DNA of 33,739 bases from Bacteroidia bacterium. GTDB taxonomy: Bacteria > Bacteroidota > Bacteroidia > M30B66. The stretch is from assembly GCA_019695235.1 (NCBI GenBank), contig JAIBAI010000034.1, forward strand, positions 1 through 33,739. The letters run 5' to 3'. Below the pieces are notes generated by a model. That model worked only from the letters and a program-made list of their open reading frames with translations. It was not told the origin of the DNA and searched no databases. The position numbers were made by a program, and so were the translations under genes. Positions 1 through 18,032 of this stretch are shown here, piece after piece. How positions within the stretch are numbered: position 1 is the first letter of the stretch; every line of letters starts with the position of its first letter.

Positions 1-297
1 TGCAATGACAATCTGAAAGGTTGTGATTTGCTTTCAGTTCCTTGAAATTCCGATATTTGCCACAACAGGTGCCATCACCAGTGCAAACGCTGTGACGTTG
101 TGATTTGCTTTCAGTTCCTTGAAATACCGATATTTGCCACAACACCCTGCACTTTGCGAAGTTTTATATCATTGTTGTGATTTGCTTTCAGTTCCTTGAA
201 ATACCGATATTTGCCACAACGGTGTTTCAAAATTTACGCTTGACAGGTTTGTTGTGATTTGCTTTCAGTTCCTTGAAATACCGATATTTGCCACAAC
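1..297 (+). CRISPR. CRISPR array A, type II-C-like (left end outside window)
   Basis: Four 47-bp direct repeats lie at 20-66, 97-143, 174-220 and 251-297. They are separated by three spacers of exactly 30 bp (67-96, 144-173, 221-250), and a further partial spacer occupies 1-19. The repeats start GTTGTGATTTGCTTTCA and end GCCACAAC, so their ends are inverted repeats (GTTGTG/CACAAC). The first repeat differs from the other three by one base (GAAATTCC instead of GAAATACC). A 47/30 geometry is typical of type II-C arrays in Bacteroidota, and from memory the first 17 bases match repeats reported there, which favours plus-strand transcription toward the 3' end of cas2. The palindromic ends leave orientation uncertain. 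The array continues beyond the left edge, so its size and the far-side leader are not visible. Confidence 0.97.
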
Positions 298-358
298 ATA
301 CTTTAATGTGTTGTACTGATATCAGGTGTTTCGGCGGTTTTTTAGGAATTAAAAACGA

Positions 359-398
359 GAACCCCCTGAGGTGTTTTACACTTCAGCCGGGGTTTTTT
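359..398. terminator. Bidirectional intrinsic terminator after array A
   Basis: AACCCC (360-365) pairs with GGGGTT (389-394), extended inside by CTGA/TCAG around a short loop. A six-T run follows on the plus strand. On the minus strand the hairpin is followed, a few bases on, by a five-T run (complement of 350-355). This would end a plus-strand array transcript and any minus-strand transcript arriving from the cas side. Confidence 0.8.
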
Positions 399-467
399 CG
401 TTTCTGGGAGGAAAGGAAAGCTTGCAAGGGCGGTGGTAGGGGACTATTTTAACCCCAAACTAAAAAG

Positions 468-485
468 CAGTTGCAATTGGTGCGG
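468..485 (-). pseudogene. Relic resembling the 3' tip of cas2
   Basis: Read on the minus strand, these 18 bases match the intact cas2 3' end (937-954) at 15 of 18 positions and would encode P-H-Q-L-Q-L where cas2 has P-Q-Q-L-E-L. The match sits at the equivalent distance after the duplicated flank, which argues against chance. The rest of the gene is missing: the relic runs straight into the first expanded repeat of array B at 485. The frame does not stop where cas2 does. It is best read as the scar left when the array flank and cas2 tip were duplicated. Confidence 0.6.
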
Positions 486-499
486 TTGTGATTTGCTTT

Positions 500-570
500 A
501 TGGATGTTGTGTTTATTTTTTAAGGTATCCATTCTTTCGCCTGAAAACCGGTGGTTTTCAGCGCTCAGGT
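500..570. repeat. 71-bp insert in first expanded CRISPR repeat
   Basis: This insert separates GTTGTGATTTGCTTT from the CCTTGAAA block of the CRISPR repeat. It contains ATGGAT (500-505) and its complement ATCCAT about 20 bases on, and a perfect nine-base hairpin CTGAAAACC (541-549) / GGTTTTCAG (553-561) with a three-base loop. No open reading frame or clear target-site duplication is visible. It could be a small palindromic mobile element or a hairpin-forming expansion. Confidence 0.75.
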
Positions 571-582
571 CTTTCCTTGAAA

Positions 583-600
583 CCCCGATAGCTATCGGGG
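583..600. repeat. 18-bp perfect palindrome inside expanded repeat 1
   Basis: CCCCGATAGCTATCGGGG replaces the TAC of the normal repeat between GAAA and CGATATTT. It may have grown from the CCGATA already present there. Palindromes of this kind are, from memory, frequent intergenic repeats in Bacteroidota genomes. Confidence 0.85.
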
Positions 601-661
601 CGATATTTACCACAACGTTCCGCTTGCGCTAAATCTTCAAGCGATTGTTGTGATTTACTTT

Positions 662-732
662 ATGGATGTTGTGTTTATTTTTTAAGGTATCCATGCTTTC
701 GCCTGAAAACCGGTGGTTTTCAGTGCTCAGGT
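662..732. repeat. 71-bp insert in second expanded CRISPR repeat
   Basis: This is the second copy of the insert at 500-570, with single-base differences. Here the following bases (CAGCTCCTTGAAA) still match the normal repeat (CAGTTCCTTGAAA), so this copy defines the insertion point most exactly, between GATTTGCTTT and CAGTTCCTTG. The same ATGGAT/ATCCAT pair and nine-base hairpin are present. Confidence 0.75.
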
Positions 733-745
733 CAGCTCCTTGAAA

Positions 746-763
746 CCCCGATAGCTATCGGGG
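746..763. repeat. 18-bp perfect palindrome inside expanded repeat 2
   Basis: Identical to the palindrome at 583-600 and at the same place in the repeat, so it was already present before the two expanded repeats diverged. Confidence 0.85.
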
Positions 764-781
764 CGATATTTACAACAATCG

Positions 782-954
782 TACTTTGATGTGTTGTACT
801 GATATCAGGTGTTTCGGCGGTTTTTTAGGAATTAAAAACGAGAACCCCCTGAGGTGTTTTGCGCTTCAGTCGGGGTTTTTTCGTTTCTGGGTGGAAGTGA
901 AAACTTGTAAGGGCAGCAGTACTTGCAGTATTTAAAACAGTTCCAATTGTTGAG
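782..954. repeat. Array flank, copy 2 of the tandem duplication
   Basis: Counterpart of 299-485. It starts just after array B and runs into the intact 3' end of cas2 (stop at 932-934), so it shows the likely original order: array, flank with terminator, cas2. At the junction ACAACA is followed by a matching TGTTGT in both copies, forming a small inverted repeat. Confidence 0.9.
842..881. terminator. Bidirectional intrinsic terminator between array B and cas2
   Basis: Second copy of the terminator. AACCCC (843-848) pairs with GGGGTT (872-877) with inner CTGA/TCAG pairing and a six-T run (876-881) on the plus strand. The minus strand also has a T run after the hairpin, so it can end the cas1-cas2 transcript as well. 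Confidence 0.8.
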
Positions 955-1270
955 GCACCCCAATTCTTGGTGCTTCTTTGCGACCATAATATATTTCAAT
1001 ATCGCCAAACTGCTTGTCGGTGATTGTTAAAATACCAATATGTCCTTTTTCGGGTAATAGTTTACGTACACGTTTTAGGTGCACTTCTGCATTCTCACGG
1101 CTGCTGCAATGGCGCATGTAAATGCTGAACTGAAACATTGAAAAACCATCGGCAAGTATCTGTTTGCGAAACTTCGCATAAATCTTGCGTTCGGCTTTTG
1201 TCTCAGTGGGCAAATCAAAAAAGACGAGAATCCACAAAATACGGTAATGGTTAAGCCGGTCGTGCGACAT
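932..1270 (-). CDS. cas2: CRISPR-associated endoribonuclease/integration factor Cas2
   Basis: Cas2 is the structural partner of Cas1 in the complex that inserts new spacers into CRISPR arrays. The 112-residue product has the normal Cas2 length. It has the N-terminal ferredoxin-like strand ending in the conserved aspartate (D19 in VFFDLP), then FRKQILADGFSMFQFSIY, a segment typical of type II Cas2. It ends P-Q-Q-L-E-L-F. It lies nine bases downstream of cas1 on the same strand, so the two are co-transcribed. Its 3' end abuts the array flank with a terminator, the usual cas2-array junction. A relic of the same 3' end is found at 468-485. The family assignment is firm. Whether the protein cuts nucleic acid is not known and is not needed for adaptation. 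Confidence 0.96.
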   Translation of the reverse strand: MSHDRLNHYRILWILVFFDLPTETKAERKIYAKFRKQILADGFSMFQFSIYMRHCSSRENAEVHLKRVRKLLPEKGHIGILTITDKQFGDIEIYYGRKEAPRIGVPQQLELF

Positions 1271-1279
1271 GGCAGTTTA

Positions 1280-2206
1280 TTACATTTCCGGGTAAATAAT
1301 TCTACGCTGCTCCCCGGCATAGCAACGTGCCAGTGAGGCTGTAGTGCGCTGCAAGGCAACCATCAACGGACTTATTTCACCATCCATCTGAATATCAAGT
1401 GCCGGTATTTTTAAAAGCCGGGCCTTTAAGTCGGTGTTTAACTCTTTGTACGGGAGCTTTTCTCTGAGAATCTCAAGTACCAGCTGATCAACATAGGGGC
1501 GGTAGGGTTCCATGATATCATCGGCAAGAGCGTAGGCATTGTACCTGTTGCGGTGAAATATGCCCAATGTTGGCAAAAGCCCTGAACCTACCAGGCTACG
1601 GGCTGTTGCAGCCCTTAAAATGGCATAACCATAATTTAGCAGGTTGTTGGGCGGGTTCCCGTCACGCTTCCGGTAAAAATCTAAAGGTGCGAAAATTCGT
1701 TGCCAGTAATAAACGGCTGCCCTTGATTCATGGTTTGCAGTATCTCCGCTTTTTACATCTTCGGCCCAATTGAACATAATTTTTGCATCACTGCCATTTT
1801 GCTGCAATAGCTGGGCTTGGTTGCGAATTTTAACACGTATCGTTTGTTGCCATAATTGTTTCTTTAGCGGAATGCTTGCTGCCAACTGATGTTTGTAGCG
1901 TTCAGCCTGGATACTGTTGCCATCTAGATTTAGCATCAGACCGGTTGGATGTCGGCTTTCATCACAGCAAATAAGGGCTACGTTATTTGCCAGAAGTTTT
2001 GCAATGGTAGGCTGACTGATGGTGATGCGGGCATGATCGAGTATTAGTACTCCAATATCTTCAATGGGAATGGTTTTTTCTGTTAAAGTTTTGAAATCAT
2101 CGGGAATGGTATCATTCTTCTCAATTTCAGGTGCCTTAACAATAAGCTGCTCATTTCGGGTGCTTAAATAAGCAGGGTTTCCAAAATAAAGGGTTCTTTT
2201 TATCAT
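1280..2206 (-). CDS. cas1: CRISPR-associated integrase Cas1, type II
   Basis: Cas1 is the metal-dependent integrase that joins prespacers to the leader-proximal repeat. The 308-residue product has the small N-terminal beta domain and the large helical catalytic domain. The expected metal ligands are visible: E160 (in NHESRAA), H218 (in GIFHRNRYN) and E233 (in ADDIMEPYRP), so it looks active. Length and motifs fit type II Cas1. It is the first gene of a two-gene unit with cas2. In type II-C loci cas9 normally precedes cas1, but 2207-2488 has no cas9 coding sequence and the next gene is a cytochrome c peroxidase on the other strand. The effector is therefore lost, elsewhere, or beyond the left edge. 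Confidence 0.96.
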   Translation of the reverse strand: MIKRTLYFGNPAYLSTRNEQLIVKAPEIEKNDTIPDDFKTLTEKTIPIEDIGVLILDHARITISQPTIAKLLANNVALICCDESRHPTGLMLNLDGNSIQAERYKHQLAASIPLKKQLWQQTIRVKIRNQAQLLQQNGSDAKIMFNWAEDVKSGDTANHESRAAVYYWQRIFAPLDFYRKRDGNPPNNLLNYGYAILRAATARSLVGSGLLPTLGIFHRNRYNAYALADDIMEPYRPYVDQLVLEILREKLPYKELNTDLKARLLKIPALDIQMDGEISPLMVALQRTTASLARCYAGEQRRIIYPEM

Positions 2207-3627: not shown

Positions 3628-6600
3628 ATGCGATTTCTTCTTTTTTGTTCAGGTATTGTTTTTTGGCTGTTTTCAGGTGCTGCTCAGGCACAGGAAAGTA
3701 CTGTCAGGGTGCAGCGATTTGTTGAAAAACAACTTTCTGGTTTAGCGCTTACAGCGGATGACTTTTCAGATGCCATGCTGAGCGACGATTACCAATCCGG
3801 TGGTTTTCGTTACGTTTATTTTCAGCAGCAACACCGGGGCATCAGGGTTTTTAATGGCTTGCTGAATGTGGTGGTACCGCCATCGGGTAAAATGTCGGTA
3901 AGCGGGAATCGCTTTGTTTCAGATATCCGGGCAAAAGCAAAAGGACAAAAGGATATTGTAGGCCCACGGCAGGCTGTTTTATCGGCATTCAATCATTTAG
4001 GTATTCCGGCAAATACTGCGCTCACAATCAACCAGCATGAAAAAGGGCGTGGTTTTGGAAACGCCGCTCAGAAGCTTGTTTTTAGTGTTTCAGAACCTGT
4101 TAAAGAGCCTGTTACAGCAGAGCTGGTATGGGTTTCAACTGACAGTGCCCTTGCACTTGGCTGGAACATTCGGATACGTTTAGAGCATGATTGGTGGGAA
4201 GTACGGGTAAGTGCACTTAGCGGGGAGGTGATAGAAAAGAATAATTGGGTAAGTCATTGTTCATTTGATAGTCATAGCCGTCATACACAGGCTGAATGCC
4301 CTGAAACAGATAAGCAGGATGCGCTGATGGGGGCGAATGATTATCAGGTATTTGATCTTCCGCTCGCAAGTCCGGCAGCAGGCGGCAGAACAGTGATAAA
4401 CAGCCCATGGTTACGGGCCGGAAATGGCAACAATGCGATTACTTTGGGATGGCATAACGACGGTTCAACAACCTATACGCGCACCCGTGGAAACAACGTA
4501 TATGCCAAGGAAGACGTGGCAGCTGATAACGAAGCCAGTATTGGTTACAGTCCGAACCCTGCAAGTGCCGACTTCAGCTTTCCATTCACAGTGGGTGCTG
4601 CGGCAAGCGTGAACAGAGATGCTGCGATTACCAATTTGTTTTTCTGGAACAACCTCTGCCATGATGTCTTTTATCAGTATGGGTTTGACGAGCCATCGGG
4701 TAATTTTCAAAAGAGCAATATGGGCAGGGGAGGCCTTGGCAATGATTTTGTGTATGCCGATGCGATGGATGGTTCAGGAACAAACAATGCGAATTTTATG
4801 AGCCCGCCGGATGGTTCAGCACCTCGGATGCAGATGTATCTGTGGAATGCCGGTTCGGCAAGTTCAGTGCTGAAGGTGAACAGTCCTTCAGGTATAGCTG
4901 GTAATTACACCGCTGCACCTGCCTTGTTTAATCCGGCTACCCCCAGCAGTGTGACGGGTAATCTCATTCTGACCTCGCCTGCCGATGGTTGTGCTGCCCT
5001 TACAAACAGTGCAGCAGTAGCCGGAAAGATTGTGGTAATTGATCGTGGTTCCTGCACTTTTGTTACCAAGGTAAAAAATGCGCAGAATGCCGGTGCCATC
5101 GGAGTAATAATTGTGAATAATGTTTCCGGAGCCCCTATCAATATGGGAGGTACTGATGGCACCATCAATATTTTAAGCTGCATGGTTACGGGCACTACCG
5201 GAAGTACATTAAAAAACGGTATTCAGGCAGGAACTGTTAATGGCACCATTCAGGTGAGCCAAGGCAGTTCATCAGCGCTGGATGCAAGTTTCGACAATGG
5301 GGTTATTACGCACGAGTATGGTCATGGCATATCCATCAGGTTAACTGGAGGCCCGGGCACAGCTTCCTGTTTATCGAATGCCGAGCAGATGGGAGAAGGA
5401 TGGAGTGATTTTTTCGCATTGATGTTAACCACTGACTGGTCAACTGCGCAGGCAAATGATTCAAGGGCAATTGCGAATTATGTTGTTGGTGAAACGCTTG
5501 GTGGCAAAGGCATCCGTGAGTATCCTTACAGTTATGATATGGGTATCAGTCCGTATAATTATAATTATGCCCGGATGAATACAGCGGTACATGATTTGGG
5601 TTCGGCCTGGGCTTCGATGTTATGGGATATGGCATGGAATATTATTGCGATAAAACCTGCATCAACTGATATTTATCATGGAGATGGGGGCAATAATATC
5701 GCCCTTCGGCTGGTGATGGAAGGTCTGAAATTACAGCCATGTAACCCGGGCTTTGTTGATGGCAGGGATGCCATTTTGAAGGCAGATGAGTTATTGTATG
5801 GTAGTGCCTATCGTTGTGCGATATGGAACGCATTTGCACGAAGGGGGCTTGGCTTAAGTGCCTCTCAGGGTTCAAGAAACAGTGCATCTGACGGAACGCA
5901 GGCATTTGATGCGCCACAAGGACTGGCATTAAGGCTGAGTGCAGATAAAGAGCTACTTTCACCTGGAGATTCAGTGAATTTTTCATTGCAGACATTGTGT
6001 GAATGCAGCGGGAATCAGGGTTTACAATTAACTGCGAAGCTTTCTTCAAAATTAGATTATGTGAGCAGCACGGGGGGGCCGGTTCAGCCTGCAGGTACAG
6101 TTGGGTTTGATGCATTTAACCTGAATATCACAGAGAGCGACACACAATATGTAAAAACATTGGTCAACGGAAGCTTCCCCCAGCCAACCATTCAGTTGAG
6201 TGATGATGCGGAAGACGGGCCTTCAAAATGGAATTCGGTTCATTTGAGTGGTACCGGGTTTCCGGCCTTTACAATAGGAGCTAACCATGCGCATAGCGGC
6301 TTAAGTGCCTGGTTTATTCCGGCAACAACACAGGCCTCACAAACTGCATTGGTATTGAGTAATCCTGTAATAATTCAGCCGGATTCATGGTTTACCTTTT
6401 GGCATTATCAGGAGATTGAGCCGGAGTACGATGGCGGTGTTGTTGAAATTTCAAGCAATGGGGGCAGTAGCTGGCAAGACCTTGGAAGCCGTATGTCGCG
6501 CAATGGGTACAATGGTACGATTGCTGTTACAGATAATAGTTTACAGGGACGCCCGGCCTTTACTGGTGTTGTGCCTATGCGGCAAACTGCTATAAACCTG

Positions 6601-15950: not shown

Positions 15951-18032
15951 TTGAATTTCGAATTTGTTTTTCAATATCCCGCATGGTATACGATATTGTG
16001 CATCATTGTAGGGAGCTCCTACGCATGGTTTCTTTACCGGAAGCCTTCAGCATTTAAAGAGGCACCCGCCTGGGTACGAAAAGGCTTGCCTGTACTTAGA
16101 GGGGTAACGGTGGCTGTTTTGGTCTTTTTGTTGCTCTCACCCTTGTTAAAATTTGTAAGCAGCGAGTTGGAGCAACCCTTGGTGATACTTCTGCACGACA
16201 ATACCGGTTCACTTGCGAAAACAGGGGCATCCGGTGAAGAATACCAAAAAAATATTTCTGCCATTCAAAAGCAATTGTCAGAGAAGTACACCATGGCTTC
16301 GTACACATTTGCTGAGCATTTGAATGACTCGTTCAGGCTTGATTTTAGTGGCAAGGAGACAGATATTTCGGCGGCAATAGAGGAGCTGAGTAATTTATAT
16401 GAGAACCGGAATGTAGGGGCGATCATTCTTGCCAGCGACGGGATTTATAATAAAGGGATTAACCCCCTTTATGCACAGAACAAATTGAAGGTGCCCATTT
16501 ACACTATTGCTTTGGGAGATACTACGGTGAAGCGTGATTTGTTTATTAGTAAGGTAAACCACAATCAGTTGGCCTACCTGAATAATATTTTTCCGATAGA
16601 GGTGATTGTACAGGCGAGGAAACTTCAGGGGAAACGTTCAAGGCTTAGTTTATTGCATGAAGGGAAATTGGTAGGGGTGAAGGAGGTGGAAATTAATCAG
16701 GAGCAGTTTTTACTGAACATACCATTTGAGTTGAAAGCAGAGAAAACAGGGATACAGCGTTACACAGTACAGCTTGAACAGGTTCAGGGTGAGGAGGTTA
16801 CGGAAAACAACCGAATGGATTTCTTCATTGAAGTGTTAGACAGCCGTCAAAAGATTCTGGTTTTGGCGGAGGCGCCGGATCCGGATGTGGGAGCGATTCG
16901 AATGTCATTGCGAAACAATCAGAATTACGAGGTGAGTGCCATGGGGCTTGACCAGTTTCAGGGCAATCTAAAGCAATACGGTCTGGTGATATTACATCAG
17001 ATACCAGGGCAGAACCAGCGCGGCCAACGGATTATTTCAGAAATTGAAGCAGCTGATATTCCGGTGTTATATATTGCAGGAGCTGCAAGTTCTCTGGGGG
17101 CGCTCAATACAGCACAACAGATGGTGCAGTTTAATGGGGCCAGGGGCAGTATTACAGAGGCCCAGGCTGTGCTAAATAAAGACTTCGCTTTGTTCACCAT
17201 GTCGGATGAACTGCGCAAAGCCTTGTTGACGTTTGACCCATTACAGGTGCCTTATGCTAATTATCAGGTGGCTAACGGGGCTTCGGTGATGTTCAGGCAG
17301 AAAATTGGTTCAGTTGAAACGGCGTATCCGATGCTGGTTTTTCAAGGGCAGGCCGACCGCAAATCTGCGCTTTTATTAGGAACCGGAATTTGGCGCTGGC
17401 GTTTGCAGGATTTTGCTGAGCACCAGAACCATCAGCTGTTTGATGAGTTTTTCTCGAAGGTAGTTCAATACTTATGTGTACGCAATGATCAACGTAACTT
17501 CAGGCTTATTGCAGCAAAATCATTTTTTGAGAATGAAGATATCCAGTTGGAGGCGGAGGTGTACAATGCAAGCTATGAATTGGTGAATGAGCCGGATGTA
17601 TTACTGAAAATTACAGATACGAAAAGCAGGACATATCCCTTTACTTTTTCAAGATCGGGCAAGGCTTATCGTTTAAATGCCGGACGATTTCCGGAGGGTG
17701 AGTACCGGTATGAAGCAAGGGTAAATCTTGCCGGGAAGGAGTATGTTGCCGGAGGGCAATTTATCGTAAAACCAGTACAGGCTGAGTTAATCCAAACCCA
17801 GGCTGATCATGGTTTAATGCGTTTACTTGCTACGCGTTCAGGTGGTAAAATGTTGACTATTTCAGAAATAGGTAAATTGCCTGAGATGGTAGGTGCATCG
17901 CCTGATCTGAAGCCAATTTCTCACAGCGAGATTCGTTTGGAGGATTTGATTAGTTTACCCTGGATATTTTTCTTCCTATTGCTTTTTCTTGCGCTCGAAT
18001 GGGGAGTGAGGAAGTGGCAGGGAGGCTACTGA
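15951..18032 (+). CDS. Membrane-anchored VWA-domain protein
   Basis: A 693-residue protein with two N-terminal membrane segments (about 11-29 and 48-66), a large periplasmic part and a final membrane segment (about 670-686, LPWIFFFLLLFLALEW). This is the layout of the BatA-like and glutamine-amidotransferase-like VWA proteins of Bacteroidota. A MIDAS-like metal site is present as D83-N-T85-G-S87, with T in place of the first serine, and ILASDG further on. A GATase-1-like fold region follows (about 300-380). The start codon is TTG: a stop (TAG) lies just upstream in frame at 15942, so no earlier start exists, and a promoter sits at the right distance. The stop overlaps the convergent gene by seven bases. 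The biological role of these proteins is not established. Confidence 0.8.
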   Translation: MNFEFVFQYPAWYTILCIIVGSSYAWFLYRKPSAFKEAPAWVRKGLPVLRGVTVAVLVFLLLSPLLKFVSSELEQPLVILLHDNTGSLAKTGASGEEYQKNISAIQKQLSEKYTMASYTFAEHLNDSFRLDFSGKETDISAAIEELSNLYENRNVGAIILASDGIYNKGINPLYAQNKLKVPIYTIALGDTTVKRDLFISKVNHNQLAYLNNIFPIEVIVQARKLQGKRSRLSLLHEGKLVGVKEVEINQEQFLLNIPFELKAEKTGIQRYTVQLEQVQGEEVTENNRMDFFIEVLDSRQKILVLAEAPDPDVGAIRMSLRNNQNYEVSAMGLDQFQGNLKQYGLVILHQIPGQNQRGQRIISEIEAADIPVLYIAGAASSLGALNTAQQMVQFNGARGSITEAQAVLNKDFALFTMSDELRKALLTFDPLQVPYANYQVANGASVMFRQKIGSVETAYPMLVFQGQADRKSALLLGTGIWRWRLQDFAEHQNHQLFDEFFSKVVQYLCVRNDQRNFRLIAAKSFFENEDIQLEAEVYNASYELVNEPDVLLKITDTKSRTYPFTFSRSGKAYRLNAGRFPEGEYRYEARVNLAGKEYVAGGQFIVKPVQAELIQTQADHGLMRLLATRSGGKMLTISEIGKLPEMVGASPDLKPISHSEIRLEDLISLPWIFFFLLLFLALEWGVRKWQGGY

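Follow-up and report, generated by a model that had tools for sequence, protein, structure and literature searches.

Long repeats with a hairpin-forming insert in type II-C CRISPR arrays of Bacteroidota, and their probable copying as whole units

How Cas1-Cas2 keeps the repeats of a CRISPR (clustered regularly interspaced short palindromic repeats) array at constant length is only partly understood, and the known rulers were mapped with changes of 1-3 nt. Can a repeat of roughly double length be copied as well? The question is raised by a stretch of 33,739 nucleotides (the window), which is the whole of contig C39 of a Bacteroidota metagenome-assembled genome (2.8 Mb, 116 contigs). At the left end of this contig lies a type II-C CRISPR region in which array A, a flank, array B, a second flank, cas2 and cas1 follow one another. 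Array B, at 485-779, consists of two repeats of 132 and 133 bp (B1 and B2) around a 30-bp spacer; the coordinates and a B1/B2 alignment of 94.7% confirm this description, which a first-pass annotation had given. Comparison of sequences makes it fairly probable, in our judgment, that 485-779 is a small type II-C array of long repeats, and that the long form was once the leader-proximal template, was duplicated whole and later lost its insert. We would give about even chances to the broader proposal that this II-C class used two-part repeats of ~90-136 bp, copied whole by an end-anchored Cas1-Cas2, and switched between long and short forms by gain and precise loss of the insert.

Each long unit is made up of GTTGTGATTTGCTTT (with ACTTT in B2), a 71-bp insert, a middle piece, the 18-bp palindrome CCCCGATAGCTATCGGGG and CGATATTTACMACAAY. 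The normal 47-bp repeat is thus split by the insert, as had been proposed, but the palindrome is no clean addition: it takes the place of three repeat bases (TAC), so that 47 + 71 + 18 exceeds the actual unit length by 3-4 bp. The palindrome matches twice in the window and never in 100 shuffles, which, with the agreement of B1 and B2, argues that the structure of the long unit is no chance product. At 485-779 there are two repeats, a unique spacer of the system's length and a leader, and cas1 and cas2 adjoin the array; an Rfam search gave no match. The orientation of such arrays was set with 38 untruncated II-C arrays, out of 80 fetched cas9 loci, read on the CRISPR RNA (crRNA) strand. The first three repeats were the more mutated in 15 of the 38 and the last three in one, with ties in 22. 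The greater degeneracy of the first repeats places the leader at the 3´ end, the variable end, as published for II-C systems (PMC12080349; PMC10309648), and makes the two 140-bp flanks leaders A and B. The ~80 bp of these leaders that adjoin the arrays are almost identical, as in a duplicated leader. Because C39 starts inside array A, the old end of that array is missing from the window.

At least 14 other Bacteroidota genomes have repeats interrupted at this same point. Most were found by a scan of cas9 loci for irregular spacing (L083, L042, L045, L035, L108 and L111), an upstream scan (L094), a DNA search of relatives (G098 and a remnant in G062) and a covariance model built on the handle and the insert (G166 and G221); G589, G619 and G425 came from searches among the relatives of the best cases. 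The long unit was absent from nine genomes of the same family as the source, and its DNA pattern had no match in IMG/VR. The long repeats lie mostly at the old, leader-distal end of an array: L035, L042, L045, L083, L094, L108, L111, G166 and G221 all have a long first repeat, and in G221 the two oldest are long. In Sphingobacterium rhinopitheci (L083), repeats 1-6 and 10 of 29 measure 98 bp and the others 46 bp, with spacers of 29-30 bp; if seven long repeats were placed randomly, the first six of 29 places would all be long with p 1.5e-5. Its relative G619, which has its own 29-30-bp spacers and a complete cas locus, carries three long repeats among 32 and a truncated one, followed by short repeats, and 3/32 repeats are long in G098. 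The order of substitutions is informative. Between long repeats 3 and 4 of L083, AACG changes to AATG, and all later repeats, whether long or short, keep the new form; in G098 a change of GAATTT to GATTTT between two adjacent long repeats is inherited by later ones. A substitution that appears inside a long block and passes to later short repeats points to the long form as the probable template of copying. We infer that the long repeats of these relatives very probably served as acquisition templates; on the simplest reading they were leader-proximal at the time and were copied in full.

The pair in the window is weaker evidence for acquisition copying. B1 is 96.1% identical to one unit on contig C111 of the same genome (C2) and 94.7% identical to another (C1), and it shares C-TTTCC with the C111 units where B2 has CAGCTCC, close to the CAGTTCC of the short repeat. 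Being at least as close to the C111 units (94.7-96.2%) as to B2 (94.7%), B1 is no fresh sister copy of it, and age and gene conversion appear to have blurred the pair. The proposal of the first-pass annotation, that an interrupted repeat was itself copied by Cas1-Cas2, therefore gains support from the relatives (L083, G619 and G098) and not from the B1/B2 pair on which it was built.

Several further observations weigh against copying during acquisition, beside the fact that B2 does not have B1 as its closest relative. L083 has one duplicated spacer, and its lone later long repeat (no. 10) carries an insert unlike that of the block; in G098 the array alternates between the long and the short form, and its third insert has diverged while the repeat parts are identical. 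Insert and repeat have thus not always been transmitted together. Long units also expand without spacers on C111 and in Chryseobacterium gambrini (L094), and such tandem copies indicate that recombination, too, multiplies them. No protospacer was found for the long-repeat spacers tried, among them that at 617-646, which had no hit in phages or IMG/VR. One L083 spacer had a 25/30 match in IMG/VR, which we set aside as near chance and unconvincing. No acquisition event was observed, and C111, which bears cas9, and C39, which bears cas1-cas2, are not proven neighbours.

What is the insert? In all cases it starts just past the stretch that pairs with the trans-activating crRNA (tracrRNA), 15-19 bp into the repeat from its spacer side, and it usually forms a hairpin with a stem of 6-8 bp. 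In the main family (the source genome G000, G098, G062, G221, G166, L083 and G619) it begins with a stem of 6-7 bp and a T-rich loop of 18-28 nt. The stems are ATGGAT/ATCCAT, ATTGAT/ATCAAT, ATGAAT/ATTCAT, ACGAAT/ATTCGT, TTTCAT/ATGAAA, ATCTAT/ATAGAT and AGCTAT/ATAGCT, differing in sequence from genome to genome with pairing constant; seven different perfect stems at the same place have a combined p of 7.6e-5. In one alignment (A1), 100% of stem cells are paired and two of six pairs show double (compensatory) changes. The covariation rests on this alignment and the arms just listed, as the short covarying arms of all families together were beyond alignment with MAFFT. No such stem stands at this place in the L042 and L094 inserts, and the homology of the families L035/L094 and L108/L111 to the main family is not clear. 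Identical bases flank the insert on both sides, TTT in G098, G221, L042, L035 and L094 and TT in G166 and L083; the five TTT cases resemble a target-site duplication, which is not clear in G000. Terminal inverted repeats were absent when the insert ends were compared by eye, and G000, G098 and G395 held no copies outside CRISPR or CRISPR-remnant sites. Of the marks of a miniature inverted-repeat transposable element, the insert shows the TTT duplication but neither such ends nor dispersed copies. A dispersed family unlinked to CRISPR, the outcome that the first-pass annotation had named as contrary to its proposal, likewise did not appear in these three genomes; only the 18-bp palindrome is dispersed.

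Three other explanations deserve weighing against whole-unit copying. Recombination alone would have multiplied one interrupted repeat by unequal crossing-over and gene conversion as the array aged; the spacers now found between long repeats would be older ones whose flanking repeats were converted, and Cas1-Cas2 would never have used the long form. We regard this as doubtful as a full account, and recombination, which had been offered as the alternative, as a real contributor. The spacerless tandem units of C111 (with a period of 146 bp) and of C. gambrini (111-115 bp), the resemblance of B1 to the C111 units, the duplicated leaders, the duplicated L083 spacer and the alternation in G098 all speak for it. 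Unequal exchange would, however, copy spacers too, whereas the L083 block of six long repeats has almost all distinct spacers, unique spacers also separate the long repeats in G619, G589 and G221, and the substitution order fits successive acquisition. That block also bears on the unlikely case of a small site-specific mobile insert that landed independently in the TTT of repeat or anti-repeat, each long repeat being a separate insertion: the clustering in the first six places is hard to obtain by random placement. The three-base flanks in five genomes would fit such an insert, as would its shared position in unrelated repeats and in the G062 remnant, which is tracrRNA-like, the lone internal long repeats of G166 and G098 and the diverged inserts within one array. 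The TTT flanks fit precise loss equally well, however, and terminal inverted repeats and copies outside CRISPR sites were lacking in the comparisons described above.

The position of many long repeats could instead reflect a function. The insert would then be a hairpin of the oldest (extra) repeat that stops extraneous crRNA (ecrRNA), comparable to the leader-repeat hairpins of type II-A and type VI systems, with internal copies as spill-over. The nine arrays whose first repeat is long, the conserved stems and the mutations and hairpins reported at this II-C repeat (PMC12080349) are in keeping with this idea, which we nevertheless hold to be quite improbable. Array B and the G589 array are made only of long repeats, several L083 spacers would be silenced, and pairing of the insert with the tracrRNA-binding handle did not rise above that of shuffled inserts in nearly all cases. 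Sequestration of the handle within the RNA was rejected on the same controls.

Under whole-unit copying, the long repeat would be a canonical repeat with a hairpin-forming insert between the 15-bp spacer-side handle and the leader-side half. Cas1-Cas2 would duplicate it whole, each cut being set by sequence near its own repeat end: the leader junction would be the anchor on one side and a handle-side ruler on the other, and the middle could loop. As the insert falls between the leader end and the 15 bp on the spacer side, both ends are intact, and an integrase with two anchors could cut correctly if the middle loops. The insert would later be lost precisely between the short flanking direct repeats (TTT or TT), which would yield the short repeats of array A, and array B, between the duplicated leader and cas2, would be a surviving long-repeat copy. 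In this scheme leader and long repeat were duplicated together and one of the copies shed its insert and grew into the short array, which fits both the window and C. gambrini; local recombination would also have multiplied and mixed long units.

The first-pass annotation had suggested that folding out of the palindromic inserts restores the distance between repeat ends. Folding the stems out, with arms chosen by eye, leaves +13, +15, +15, +5, +11, +15, +11, -3 and +10 bp relative to the canonical repeat, and with residuals of -3 to +15 bp exact restoration by hairpin extrusion is not the explanation. A flexible middle is favoured by the ordinary short repeats of the clade, whose lengths span 36 to 57 bp in systems with related Cas1-Cas2; the Cas1 of the 36-bp case is ~61% identical to that of the window. 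The challenge to a fixed ruler was stated too strongly. In II-A systems a motif near the spacer-side end fixes the second integration site at a distance of 8 bp (Kim et al., 2019, PMC6895254), and length changes between the leader end and this motif, tested with 1-3 nt, shift the cut by the same amount, so that insertions upstream of the ruler motif are already known to move the second cut equally. In contrast to that ruler, the natural inserts here are ~43-90 bp and the polarity of the array is reversed. The new point would be the tolerance of such inserts within a copied repeat.

The assignment to type II-C rests on cas1-cas2 at the array, a II-C cas9 and a tracrRNA with matching anti-repeat. 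The cas9 (1471 aa, of the II-C kind) is on contig C111 and is 55-86% identical to Bacteroidota cas9 genes; the tracrRNA lies upstream of it (L010 ~5533-5615), and its anti-repeat GAAAGCAAATCACAA matches the repeat. Neither csn2 nor cas4 was recognised among the open reading frames (ORFs) listed around cas1-cas2 or cas9, which lie on separate contigs, and no profile search was aimed at the two. The system shares with the II-C arrays of Flavobacterium, Riemerella and Chryseobacterium the handle GTTGTGAWTTGCTTTCA, 30-bp spacers, the cas9-cas1-cas2 gene set, a tracrRNA upstream of cas9 and a leader at the 3´ (variable) end, and differs from them in that some repeats reach 89-136 bp through a mid-repeat, usually hairpin-forming insert. 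As in II-C ecrRNA silencing (Feussner et al., 2025, PMC12080349), the oldest repeat is altered or structured; there, however, point mutations, terminators and upstream guide hairpins are described, whereas here the repeats bear inserts and the insert does not tie up the handle in the folds. We found no earlier report of insert-bearing CRISPR repeats in the open-access literature.

If whole-unit copying is right, the copying enzyme needs no fixed repeat length, and repeat length can change reversibly inside living arrays. Natural arrays with approximately doubled repeats, 30-bp spacers and subsequent reversion would be substrates that separate end recognition from end-to-end distance. Array-finding software that assumes a single repeat length may clip or misread such arrays.

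Table 1. Positions of the CRISPR features and cas genes in the window.
Feature	Position	Strand	Remarks
CRISPR array A, four 47-bp repeats (20-66, 97-143, 174-220, 251-297)	20..297	+	30-bp spacers, period 77
Leader of array A (140-bp flank 299-438), at its 3´ end	298..438	+	terminator-like hairpin and T run
Long repeat B1 (unit 1), 132 bp	485..616	+	
71-bp insert of B1, directly after the 15-bp tracrRNA-pairing handle	500..570	+	
First hairpin of B1 insert, stem ATGGAT/ATCCAT, 21-nt T-rich loop	500..532	+	stem covaries across genomes
Second hairpin of B1 insert, CTGAAAACC-GGT-GGTTTTCAG	541..561	+	
18-bp palindrome CCCCGATAGCTATCGGGG in B1	583..600	.	
Spacer between B1 and B2, 30 bp	617..646	+	
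Long repeat B2 (unit 2), 133 bp, leader-proximal	647..779	+	insert 662-732, palindrome 746-763
Leader of array B (140-bp flank 782-921)	780..921	+	
cas2	932..1270	-	PF09827, 3.7e-17
cas1	1280..2206	-	PF01867, 4.8e-30

The final bases of B2 have decayed (CAACAAT). Within the source genome the long unit occurs only in the window and on C111, beside cas9, where three further units stand in tandem at the contig end with the palindrome CCCCGATAGCTATCGGGG in the spacer position. In these C111 copies the second insert hairpin has kept its stem and changed its loop. That the long unit might be the tracrRNA gene was considered and rejected for G000, in which the real tracrRNA upstream of cas9 has an ordinary promoter-like upstream region.

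Long unit and tracrRNA are joined only in the G062 remnant (L032, G062:C8, ~16160-16345). There a solitary long repeat is continued without a gap by a tracrRNA tail, the nexus of which is broken by a TCCCGAGTACTCGGGA palindrome, and the nearby ORFs include no recognisable cas gene. G589 (L206 9768-10130) has an orphan array of just three long repeats and two 30-bp spacers with a tracrRNA-like terminator at its end, and cas1, cas2 and cas9 had no match within the 20 kb fetched around it. Seven tandem long repeats of 111-115 bp, without spacers, precede the array of C. gambrini (L094 reverse complement, ~897-1640), a satellite also present in its relative G425; C. gambrini has the layout of the window, with array, leader, long repeat, second leader-like stretch and cas2. 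Weak matches to the insert model, in opposite orientation, adjoin the old end of an Aureispira array (L061 13068-13119 and 13258-13309).

The palindrome CCCGATAGCTATCGGG is found at nine places in the source genome (as a 16-mer core) and in other genomes of the class. The places include 583-600 and 746-763 of the window, L010 77-96, 112-130 and 223-242, and the ends of L025 and L026. On C111 both a spacer and the GTTG of the repeat that follows have given way to it, and at the end of C108, where part of a tRNA-Trp region is copied, it stands in place of AATT. A different palindrome, TCCCTACTATGTCGTAGGGA, stands in L080 (reverse complement 1480-1615) in place of a spacer and parts of both flanking repeats, and ends at the same TGATTTGC position as that of C111. 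Upstream of the first repeat in L067, the oldest repeat's handle is matched by a mirror copy to give a perfect hairpin, GAATGAAAGCAAATTTTCGCGAAGCGAAAATTTGCTTTCATTC, which might block ecrRNA.
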